Assembly (NCBI GenBank): GCA_001897535.1
Contig: MKTC01000031.1
Location: 202,428-266,427 of the forward strand
DNA: 64,000 bases
Direction: 5' to 3'
Source: Bacteroidetes bacterium 37-13
GTDB lineage: Bacteria; Bacteroidota; Bacteroidia; Chitinophagales; LD1
This document shows positions 1 to 31,496 of this stretch, piece by piece; the first letter of the stretch is position 1; each line of letters begins with the position of its first letter. Made by a program: the position numbers and the translations under genes. The notes beneath the pieces are model-generated. The model did no database searches. It was not told the DNA's origin and saw nothing but the letters and a program-made list of their open reading frames with translations.

Positions 1-2087
1 ATACTGTTTCAGGTATAATTTACAAGCGCGGAAGTTATGTTCCTGCTGTGCTTTTGCCCGCCCCGCAACTTCAGCAAATATTTTCGCTTGGCAACGATTT
101 TAAAATAAGTGATAATCATTTAATCACTACAGAAGCCGCATTGAGTAATAGAGATGTGAACACGCTTTCTACAAAAGATAATAACGATAATATGGGCGCT
201 GCGGCAAAAATAAATTATAGAGGAATAGTGCCAACAAAGCGCGATAGCGCTACAATAAAAGAGCAGTTATTGATAGATGCTTCGTATGAATTTGTGCAAG
301 CAAAATTCAAATATGTAGAGCGATTTAGAGCAATAGAATTTAACCGTGAATGGAATACTACTGCGTATGTGAATCCACGCGATGAACATTATGGCAATTT
401 GTTTTTACAATATCAATTTGCGAAGGCAGGAAACATTAATTATAGATTTAGAAATTATGTTCAGAAAGGAGTTTTTACGGGTTATGAAAATAGCATTGGC
501 GCAATATTACAAGGCAAAGGCTTTTTGTTTACTACGCAAAATTCAATAATGAATAGCAGCGGCTTAGGACAAAAATCTCTATTCGTTAGACCCAAAGCAG
601 ATTTGAGTTATGCAATTGCAAAAGCTCGAAACGTAAGGGTTGGCGTGTATTTAGACCATGAAATAAACTCAATTACACACAGCAGCACAAACCATTTAGA
701 TGCACATTCTTATGTGTGGCAAAACTATGGTGTGTATTTAAAATCGCCCGATAGTATGCGCAATCAATTTGGAATTGAAGCGCGACTGCGCATGGAGCAG
801 CGCCCTGATTCTAACAAGTTTAATTCGCCATATTTTTATGGACAGTCTGTTTCCACTTTTGGAAAAATAACAACGCTAAAAAATCAATCACTAAACTGGA
901 CTGCAACTTATCGTTACGCTTTTAACAGCGATTCCATAAATGCGCAAAACTATAATCAACATTACTATTTAGGACGAATTGATTATACCATTACTACGCT
1001 TAAAGGCTTTTTGCGAAGCACTACTTTGTATGAAATTAGCAGCGGACGTGAGCAGAAAGTGCAACTCTCTTATCAGCGTTCGCCTACAAACACAGGCGAT
1101 TTTGTGTGGAAAGATGCGAATGGTGATGGTATAAAACAGTTAGATGAATTTGTAATTTCTCCTTTTCGTGAAGATTCTTCTTACGTGAAAGTTTTTACAG
1201 TTACACCTGAATCTCTTCCCGTAAATGTGGCAGGTTTTACACAAACTTTAAATATAAATCCGGCTTCATTGCTTGGTAAAAACGCATCGCGTGCGGCAAA
1301 GTTTTTTGCAAAGTTTTCAATGTTTGCAAGCATAGAAGTGCAGCGCAAAAATTTTGCGCTGAAAGGTTCTGGTGCAGCAAATGTTTTTAATCCTTTTCCG
1401 GTTTCATTTAAGAGTCCGCTTTTAGTGAGTATTACACACAATTCCAGAGCTTCAGTTTTTTTTAATCGCTTAGATCCAAAGTATGGCGCTCAGTTCGATT
1501 TTAGCTACTTGCAGAACAAAGTATTGCTTACCAATGGTTATGAAGAAAGGTTATCACAAACGCAAAGTGTAACGCTGCGATACAACTTTATTAAGTCGCT
1601 TACTCTACAAACAAATTATACGAATGGCACACGAGCCAATAGCAGCGATTTTTATTTTGGGCAGCGATACCATTTTTATTTTAACCAAACAAAAACAGAG
1701 TTTTCGTATCAGTACAAAACCGATTTTAGAATTGCGGTAAATTATCTTTTTGCCCGAAAAGTAAATCCAACCGATAGCGTAGGAAAGCAAACGGTAAACA
1801 TTCATGAGGCGGGATTAAATTCTCGATACAATATTTCTGGGAAGGCTGCTGCTGAAGCGAAGTTTTCTTACTCGTATATTAAATACATGGATAAAGATTA
1901 TGTGAATCAACAGCTGGAATATGCCATGATGGAAGGCTTACAGAATGGTAATAATTTGGTGTGGAATGCAACGGTTGAATACCGCTTAACACCAGCAGTT
2001 TTACTCACTTTTGTTTATGATGGAAGAAAGACAGGAACTTCAAAAGTAGTGCATTCCGGCAGAGCAGAATTGAGGGCTATTTTTTAA
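1..2087 (+). CDS. Large outer-membrane beta-barrel-like protein, 3' part only
   Basis: The reading frame is open from base 3, so the gene begins upstream of the window. An internal GTG at 48 is not the real start. About 690 residues are visible. They are rich in alternating polar and aromatic strands such as NYRFRNYV and WTATYRYAF, and the protein ends in phenylalanine after RAELRAIF, as many outer-membrane barrels do. Around residue 355 (counted from the GTG) lies an EF-hand-like loop, DANGDGIKQLDE, with acidic or Asn residues at loop positions 1, 3, 5 and 12. I recognise the general type (large surface or outer-membrane proteins of Bacteroidota) but no named family. The missing N-terminus prevents a firmer call. 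Confidence 0.6.
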   Translation, partial: TVSGIIYKRGSYVPAVLLPAPQLQQIFSLGNDFKISDNHLITTEAALSNRDVNTLSTKDNNDNMGAAAKINYRGIVPTKRDSATIKEQLLIDASYEFVQAKFKYVERFRAIEFNREWNTTAYVNPRDEHYGNLFLQYQFAKAGNINYRFRNYVQKGVFTGYENSIGAILQGKGFLFTTQNSIMNSSGLGQKSLFVRPKADLSYAIAKARNVRVGVYLDHEINSITHSSTNHLDAHSYVWQNYGVYLKSPDSMRNQFGIEARLRMEQRPDSNKFNSPYFYGQSVSTFGKITTLKNQSLNWTATYRYAFNSDSINAQNYNQHYYLGRIDYTITTLKGFLRSTTLYEISSGREQKVQLSYQRSPTNTGDFVWKDANGDGIKQLDEFVISPFREDSSYVKVFTVTPESLPVNVAGFTQTLNINPASLLGKNASRAAKFFAKFSMFASIEVQRKNFALKGSGAANVFNPFPVSFKSPLLVSITHNSRASVFFNRLDPKYGAQFDFSYLQNKVLLTNGYEERLSQTQSVTLRYNFIKSLTLQTNYTNGTRANSSDFYFGQRYHFYFNQTKTEFSYQYKTDFRIAVNYLFARKVNPTDSVGKQTVNIHEAGLNSRYNISGKAAAEAKFSYSYIKYMDKDYVNQQLEYAMMEGLQNGNNLVWNATVEYRLTPAVLLTFVYDGRKTGTSKVVHSGRAELRAIF

Positions 2088-29696: not shown

Positions 29697-30815
29697 TTAC
29701 GCATTTATCATTACCGGCATCACCAGCATCAATAAATCTTCGCCTTCTACTTTTTCAACCGGACGCAAAATTCCTGCACGTGTTGGCACAGAAAGTTCAA
29801 TTTCTACATCTCCGCTATCTAACACGCCAAGCATTTCAATTAAAAAACGTGCGTTGAAAGCAATGTCCATATCTGTTCCTTCGTAGCTGCAAGTTAAGCG
29901 CTCGTTTGCTTCGTTGCTAAAGTCAATATCTTGTGCAGAAATTTTCAACTCGCTACCGGCAATACTCAACACCACTTGGTAAGTAGTTTGGTTCGAGAAA
30001 ATTGAAATTCTTCTTAGTGCATTTTGAAATTCTAAGCGGTTAAGCGTAAGTTTATTTGGGTTGTTTAAAGGAATTACAGCATTGTAATCCGGGTAATTTG
30101 CTTCAATTAAACGGCAAATAAGTTTGGTGTTTTCAAACGAGAAAAATGCGTTTGATTTGTTGTAGCTCACATTCACTACCGAAGCATTGTTTGGCACTGC
30201 ACTTTTCATTAAGTTTAGTGCTTTCCTTGGCACAATAAACTGTGTTTCTTTTGATGCGCGAACATCGCTGCGGTTAAGTTTTACCAACTTGTGCGCATCG
30301 GTAGAAACAAAAGTTAAACCTTCAGGATTTACTTGAAAAAGCACACCTGTCATGGCTGGTCTTAATTCATCGGTACTCACTGCAAAGAAAGTTTTAGAAA
30401 TTGCGCTGCTAAGCACAGATCCTTGCATATTTATTTCAGTTACAGAATCTGCTTCAGGTATTTTAGGGAAATCTTCAGGGTTTTCTCCGCTCAATTTATA
30501 TCTACCTGTTTGGCTGCTAATTTCTATACCGTAGTTATTTTGGTCAATAGAAAAAGTAAGCGGCTGTTCTGGCAAAGTTTTCAATGTATCAATCAAAATT
30601 TTAGCCGGAATTGCCACCTTGCCGGTATCTTTAGATTCAATATTCACTTCGGTGCTCATAGAAGTTTCTAAATCGGTAGCAAAAATTACAAGTTGATTAC
30701 CTTTGATGTCGAAAAGAAAATCTTCTAAAATTGGTAATACAGTGTTGGAGTTAATTACACCGCCAATAGTTTGCAAACCTTTAAGCAGCGAAGTAGTTGA
30801 TATAATAAACTTCAT
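29697..30815 (-). CDS. dnaN: DNA polymerase III beta sliding clamp
   Basis: The product has 372 residues, full length for the three-domain clamp. Family marks are LKGLQTIGGVINSNTVLPIL at the start, GEN/PEDFP in the first linker, FVSTDAHKL in domain 2 and the terminal MLVMPVMIN. The clamp encircles DNA and tethers polymerase. It stands apart from dnaA and gyrB in this window. Confidence 0.96.
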   Translation of the reverse strand: MKFIISTTSLLKGLQTIGGVINSNTVLPILEDFLFDIKGNQLVIFATDLETSMSTEVNIESKDTGKVAIPAKILIDTLKTLPEQPLTFSIDQNNYGIEISSQTGRYKLSGENPEDFPKIPEADSVTEINMQGSVLSSAISKTFFAVSTDELRPAMTGVLFQVNPEGLTFVSTDAHKLVKLNRSDVRASKETQFIVPRKALNLMKSAVPNNASVVNVSYNKSNAFFSFENTKLICRLIEANYPDYNAVIPLNNPNKLTLNRLEFQNALRRISIFSNQTTYQVVLSIAGSELKISAQDIDFSNEANERLTCSYEGTDMDIAFNARFLIEMLGVLDSGDVEIELSVPTRAGILRPVEKVEGEDLLMLVMPVMINA

Positions 30816-30961
30816 ATCGTTTTTTATTATTTTATTGTTCTAAACCGCGAATGTAAAAATTAACACCACAAACAAATATCGTTTTTCGGGCTTTTTTGCA
30901 ATATACTTAAAAATGTTGGTAAGCTGTGTATATCAATTATTAGCAGCGCACAAAGTGTTTT

Positions 30962-31098
30962 TTGGGCGTTCCCCGAAACATTTGCTTGGCTAAATGCTCT
31001 GCTAATGTTTCGGGTCGTGCTTTACGCTCCAATCTTTTGCTCGTTCCTCACAAAAGGATTTCTGCTGCAATCACTAACGCAAAATACAGCAGCAGCGC
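30962..31098 (+). repeat. Structured repeat with three nested stems, flanked by short direct repeats
   Basis: An outer pair GCGTT (30966-30970) / AACGC (31076-31080) encloses two hairpins. The first is an exact 11-bp stem, CCCGAAACATT (30972-30982) with AATGTTTCGGG (31004-31014). The second is AATCTTTT (31031-31038) with AAAGGATT (31053-31060), one G-U pair. AGCAGCGC occurs on both sides, at 30942-30949 and 31091-31098. From memory, elements of this pattern ending CTAACGC are scattered in Bacteroidota genomes; I cannot verify that here. An ORF across it (30962-31174) is probably not a gene. Confidence 0.7.
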
Positions 31099-31124: not shown

Positions 31125-31496
31125 GTGAGTTTAGAAAGTCGTTATCGCTATTCAAACGAGATTGTTTACAATAATTTTCTATGGCCAGAAAACATTAGTG
31201 AGAAACAAGTGTCTGCAATTGAGAAAGCAATCGAAAAAGTTTTATCTGTAAGAAAAAGTATAACAAATTGTCCTATCGGCAAAATGTATGAAAACGGTAA
31301 AATGCCACCAGCATTAGTAAAAGCACATATTGAATTAGATAAAGCAGTAGATAGCTCATATAAAAAAGCTACTTTTACAAGTGATACCAATCGTATGGAA
31401 TTTTTATTTGAACTTTACGAAAAATATACAGCAGAACTTTTTTCGAAAGAAATACCCAAAAAAATAAATCATGATTTATATTTCTCAAATTATTGA
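31125..31496 (+). pseudogene. C-terminal fragment of an MmeI-type (type IIL) DNA methyltransferase/restriction enzyme
   Basis: The 123 residues resemble only the last part of large MmeI-like class I SAM-dependent DNA methyltransferases. Recognisable stretches are YSNEIVYNNFLWPENISEKQ, MPPALVKAHIELDKAVD and NRMEFLFELYEKYTAELF. The methyltransferase and nuclease domains that should precede (several hundred residues) are absent. The homology begins immediately next to the structured repeat. The visible start is GTG 31125, part of the homology rather than a real start. It is most likely a non-functional remnant of a restriction-modification gene. Confidence 0.75.

Follow-up and report, generated by a model that had tools for sequence, protein, structure and literature searches.

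The repeat element in the window, i.e. the whole 64,000-nucleotide stretch of DNA analysed, can be assigned by sequence and structure to the Rfam family Flavo-1. With moderate confidence, the family is regarded here as a mobile repeat that is not autonomous and in which a closed three-way junction of single-stranded DNA is the form under selection. The evidence consists of a covarying Watson-Crick fold closed by a helix termed P1, of dispersed copies without preferred orientation, and of discrete ends in plasmid copies. A mobile element structured as single-stranded DNA is favoured over an RNA because of the near absence of G-U pairs, random orientation, the range of copy numbers, presence/absence differences between genomes, and the lack of target-site duplication.

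The element would fold when its strand is exposed, as on the lagging strand, during conjugative transfer or in repair, and a protein acting in trans would recognize the fold as DNA. This protein is probably a HuH-type or similar endonuclease or recombinase with specificity for single strands, and it would cut and join the element at a flush left end and at a right end made of P1 plus CC. Plasmids would carry it between phyla. If Flavo-1 is DNA, many annotations are mislabelled, and a class of mobile elements that fold as single strands and extend across phyla is added to those of the Bacteroidota; the enzyme, and a possible role in plasmid entry, are then open to direct testing with a minimal unit that extends from P1 to P1 plus CC.

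Structure of the element

In the window, the family model corresponds to the minus strand, and the parts of the element are given on that strand unless stated otherwise. Positions 31009–31085 match Flavo-1 (RF01705) over its full length (model positions 1–76; 50.7 bits, E = 1e-9), above the Rfam gathering threshold of 42 bits. The full element, at 30964–31080, comprises the Flavo-1 core, hairpin 1 and the closure P1, and its right end reads ...AACGCCC. The P1 5′ arm GCGTT (31076–31080) covaries across copies with the 3′ arm AACGC (30966–30970), which is followed by the conserved right end CC and an A-rich stretch; read on the plus strand, the closure is GCGTT at 30966–30970 and AACGC at 31076–31080. 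Inside it lies P2, with the 5′ arm GTG (31072–31074) and the 3′ arm CAC (31017–31019), which among copies covaries as GGG/CCC, GCG/CGC, GTG/CAC and CCG/CGG. Core strand A, ATTGCAGCAGAAA (31059–31071; from the descriptor scan and the Rfam consensus structure), runs antiparallel to core strand B, GATTGGAGCGTAAAG (31020–31034; Rfam consensus structure), leaving two GNA/GNA 3x3 loops. Hairpin 2, CTTTTG.../...CAAAAG with a variable loop, occupies 31035–31058. Hairpin 1 (30971–31015) has an exact 11-bp stem in this copy, in which, read on the plus strand, CCCGAAACATT (30972–30982) pairs with AATGTTTCGGG (31004–31014).

Folded as single-stranded DNA, the stretch reaches -30.4 kcal/mol (z = -3.4), a value attained by none of 200 shuffled sequences. 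The GCGTT/AACGC structure with an 11-bp and a second hairpin, proposed in an earlier note made from the sequence, is thus present. That note overlooked the P2 helix and the two core strands of ATTGNARYGNAAA type that pair with each other, as well as the identity of the element with a known Rfam family.

A descriptor scan of homologous copies shows that the family unit exceeds the Rfam model. Along the minus strand it begins with the P1 5′ arm GCGTT, an A, the P2 5′ arm, core strand A and hairpin 2; these are followed by core strand B, the P2 3′ arm, G(A), hairpin 1 (0 to ~110 nt across copies), the P1 3′ arm AACGC, CC and the A-rich flank. The antiparallel core strands form two pseudo-symmetric GNA/GNA 3x3 internal loops around an RY/RY pair step. 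P2, the two internal loops, the RY/RY central pairs, a bulge and hairpin 2 are shared with the Flavo-1 RNA of RF01705, whereas the Rfam model ends inside the unit and has no P1, hairpin 1 or CC right end. These three parts are new here; the core pairs are already in the Rfam consensus.

In a gap-free alignment of 38 copies, 96.9% of pair cells are standard, and 114 double compensatory changes were counted versus 28.6 in shuffled alignments and at most 24 in slid controls. With 72 distinct copies, including those from plasmids and other phyla, the count is 253 versus 66.8 shuffled, in an alignment that was fitted to the model. The test of P1 involved no choice of arms: in each of 65 copies the pentamer just before P2 was taken and its complement sought in the next 120 nt downstream, where it is present in 54 copies. 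The pentamers of other copies give an expectation of 5.7 (permutation 0/5000), and a complement followed by C occurs in 52 copies versus 2.0 expected. RNAalifold applied to the Paraclostridium copies independently recovers P1, P2 and hairpin 1. Compensatory change among homologues is strong, and Flavo-1 is conserved in structure more than in sequence. Some copies have another Bacteroidota repeat, of the CATTGCGAGG...GAAGCAATCCCC type, inside hairpin 2 with the stem kept (loops of L025 and L026).

A single-strand fold with variable terminal hairpins, and an GCGTTAGG end that by eye resembles an R box, call to mind the attC sites of integrons, where a folded single strand is likewise the probable working form and is acted upon by a tyrosine recombinase. 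The attC core triplet is invariant. The P1 end of Flavo-1, however, varies among copies (GCGTT, GCGTG, GCCTG, GGGGC, GAGTT and others), with no constant GTT/AAC core site, and neighbouring copies alternate in orientation and form no cassette arrays. An attC-like site is scarcely credible.

DNA fold or RNA

Flavo-1 RNA was described as a motif predicted by computation, its function unknown (Weinberg et al., 2010; PMC2864571), and is counted among the most abundant Rfam sRNA families, with no known function (PMC9029176). Rfam types it as a Bacteroidetes sRNA, whereas in the present analysis it behaves like DNA and also occurs in Bacillota, Gammaproteobacteria and Spirochaete MAGs. A structured RNA, either a small RNA or a cis-regulatory RNA, would agree with the Rfam entry and its consensus structure, and the geometry of the core helix should be stable in RNA too. 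In the Flavobacterium psychrophilum transcriptome some 5′ transcribed regions coincide with Flavo-1, but matches occur in sense and antisense indistinctly, and many are untranscribed (PMC9723704).

The pairs of Flavo-1 switch among G-C, C-G, A-T and T-A and almost never involve G-U, which makes up 5 of the 626 standard cells in the 38 gap-free copies and 13 of 1076 in the 72 distinct copies. In RNA helices G-U is the usual intermediate of pair changes, so that its near absence is as predicted for a DNA fold. As 6S-Flavo, sought as a wobble control in these genomes, was not found, tRNAs were taken instead; at the same loci they show 32 G-U pairs in 391 (8.2%), versus about 1% in Flavo-1. It should be pointed out that the descriptor gave G-U half weight, but in P2 and hairpin 2 only, and the core pairs are therefore a fair sample.

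Orientation relative to genes is random: the element lies on the same strand as the downstream gene in 32 of 71 cases and as the upstream gene in 38 of 66. A leader RNA or terminator was rejected on account of this lack of bias. The scarcity of wobble pairs despite plentiful double changes, unbiased position and orientation with respect to genes, extreme variation in copy number, and occurrence in sense and antisense make a structured RNA improbable. The conservation pattern and copy number of Flavo-1, together with its unoriented placement and its occurrence on transferable plasmids in three phyla, suit a mobile piece of DNA that acts in single-stranded form better than an RNA.

Distribution, ends and mobilization

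Of 120 relatives, 57 carry Flavo-1, and scored copies per genome range from none to at least 36. Extrapolation from additional copies within fetched stretches of up to 20 kb around known ones gives ~1 copy per 25 kb, or ~150–240 per genome, in G004 and G030. The earlier note mentioned similar elements in other Bacteroidota, where they prove widespread; copies are also carried by Treponema/Spirochaetales MAGs, the spirochaete copies all being from MAGs. No match was found in 50,697 phage records, or with a first GTDB pattern and one IMG/VR pattern. The element is not single-copy in its own genome, which has two copies, while two congeners have none. The second copy (L292:1501–1569) is directly upstream of a 451-aa open reading frame (1613–2968), for which there is no significant Pfam match.

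The sister species G002, in which dnaN (29697–30815, minus strand), the left neighbour in the window, is syntenic, keeps the neighbours of the element but has no accessory patch. There the interval is ~170 bp, versus ~1.1 kb here, where it carries the element and a C-terminal fragment of MmeI, a type IIL restriction-modification remnant (31125–31496, plus strand; PF20467, E = 3e-24). The accessory setting pointed out in the earlier note is borne out by this comparison. A homologue of the MmeI fragment is present elsewhere in the sister species (C4:279818).

At further orthologous sites, too, some species have the element and others do not. The only clean empty site (G070) is also without ~120 nt upstream and so does not show the exact insertion event, a point against the mobile-repeat reading. 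When conserved flanks were used to look in G007 for empty sites of the G004 copies, no match spanned such a site, and an apparent empty site in Moraxella catarrhalis turned out to be a deletion derivative with both ends of the element. Three copies in Algibacter miyuki (L202, L207, L215) share ~1.4–2.2 kb of upstream sequence without long open reading frames, and homology between them ends at the right end of the element. Judged by size, lack of reading frames and repetition, the shared sequence appears to be from an rRNA operon, and the three copies were therefore counted as one locus type.

Over 49 copies, flanking direct repeats were as frequent as in shuffled sequences, and no target-site duplication was seen. 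The 8-bp direct repeats AGCAGCGC at 30942–30949 and 31091–31098 (plus strand), between which the earlier note placed the element, are no feature of the family and probably incidental. Pyrimidines prevail directly to the left of the element, and at its right end CC is followed by A-rich sequence. Moraxella plasmid copies, ~157 bp in length and ~97% identical, lie at different sites with sharp borders.

Copies less than 3 kb apart are inverted in 13 of 14 pairs, mostly with the right ends outward. This is what a MITE of a DDE transposase might show if paired copies acted as inverted termini, and in Paraclostridium two inverted copies surround an amidase region. Yet there is no target-site duplication in the 49 copies, single copies are sharp-ended too, and a conserved internal single-strand fold is unexpected in a MITE; this origin is very improbable. 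On Paraclostridium plasmids, a conserved and structured noncoding unit of ~515 nt, with a covarying long helix of its own, has Flavo-1 as its 3′ end (L171:3080–3612, plus strand, and 690–1250, minus strand; also L110, L169, L170 and L172), often as the two inverted copies mentioned. This unit has no other Rfam match and was not found in the phage records.

Insertion into single-stranded DNA would be expected to give a replication-strand bias. The split derived from local GC skew is 41:25, a weak bias that tells slightly against the mobile-repeat reading. Also against it, no transposase or recombinase gene accompanies Flavo-1 in general: among ~50 RAYT/IS200-type loci, the element lies within a few hundred base pairs in one genus only (g40). 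The interpretation in the earlier note, a mobile or recombination-related repeat that folds as a single strand, is partly sustained: a single-strand-folding element of mobile type and without accepted function is supported, and a part in recombination is possible, but no such gene is generally found alongside.

The association in genus g40 raises the question of whether Flavo-1 is a REP of RAYT subclass 2.6. Flavo-1 lies 5′ of all four close RAYT genes there, in three cases bordering a shared unit; one gene is adjoined by a half copy only, with a full copy ~850 bp further, and one has a half copy on the opposite side as well. REPs of subclass 2.6 (group 5 in Bacteroidetes) are described as being without a GT[AG]G foot (PMC6006769). 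Like REPs mobilized by TnpA_REP/RAYT, Flavo-1 is a dispersed, multicopy intergenic palindrome that often occurs in inverted pairs, but its three-way fold is larger, and neither a GT[AG]G nor a CGTC foot is found at its stem, in the borders or in the flank composition. In addition, none of ~45 other YIHxNP-type RAYT loci has Flavo-1 within 1.5–2 kb, at least one RAYT locus outside g40 has another palindrome on both sides, and a Y1_Tnp search gave no match in three genomes that have Flavo-1 (G057, with 13 copies, G051 and G102). Membership in subclass 2.6 is unlikely. RAYT as the general mobilizer, at first the leading candidate and a good one in g40, fails at the ~45 other loci and in the genomes without a Y1 match, some of them multicopy. 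The g40 RAYT units (NHMH...YIHNNP; L086:1640–2780, L040, L147, L148), with Flavo-1 at the 5′ border, have GTTCTGCTCGATTTGCAATCGAGC hairpins on both sides.

Plasmid copies and conjugation

Plasmids with Flavo-1 occur in Paraclostridium, Moraxella, Chryseobacterium, Phocaeicola, Bacteroides, Parabacteroides and Butyricimonas. Four conjugative or mobilizable types, Moraxella MOBF, Chryseobacterium MOBB, Bacteroides MOBP and p5482 MOBB, show one polarity, with the element beyond oriT relative to the mob genes, where oriT was placed from gene order. In the Moraxella MOBF plasmids, the family strand is the plus strand in all seven copies, whether full or partial, with mobF/T4CP on minus to the left. 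In the other three types the family strand reads away from the mob/oriT side, and the element is upstream of ArdC, which is on the opposite strand. The positions of plasmid copies near ArdC/JAB genes are conserved, which hints at a resident function and weighs against the mobile-repeat reading.

The strongest rival to that reading is a signal on the conjugating strand, i.e. a single-stranded DNA promoter or priming site of conjugative elements of the Frpo or ssi kind, with the chromosomal copies as relics or secondary spread. The incoming T-strand would fold and recruit RNA polymerase or primase, leading to early anti-restriction expression or a second-strand start. Frpo sites are known upstream of leading-region anti-defence genes, and the main text of the Frpo study names neither Bacteroidota nor Rfam families (PMC11541004). 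With Frpo, ssi and sso sites and the STAXI motif, Flavo-1 shares a single-strand fold, and on conjugative plasmids it shares a location near ArdC/JAB genes in one polarity. It differs in having no recognized promoter boxes, since by inspection neither -33/-7 (TTG/TAnnTTTG) nor sigma70 boxes are conserved in the core, and in its very high chromosomal copy number in some genomes. Moreover, oriT was placed by gene order rather than located, the polarity of pMMCAT does not fit when its MobC is used, ArdC modules may be common to plasmids so that the cases are not fully independent, and the chromosomal copies, the large majority, have no such arrangement. Such a signal is possible but doubtful.

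A broader version holds that Flavo-1 is not an RNA but a single-stranded DNA conjugation device in Bacteroidota and beyond, a T-strand promoter or priming fold that also spreads chromosomally as a mobile repeat; it would be the Frpo/ssi counterpart not described in Bacteroidota, and this proposal as a whole seems rather unlikely. The polarity on plasmids would follow equally from insertion into single strands during transfer and from a strand-specific signal such as Frpo, and does not decide between the two.

In the Bacteroides MOBP plasmids (L240, L246, L245), a short recombinase-family gene directly adjoins the element with its 3′ end. Such a gene is also present, at other positions, on several other plasmids with Flavo-1.
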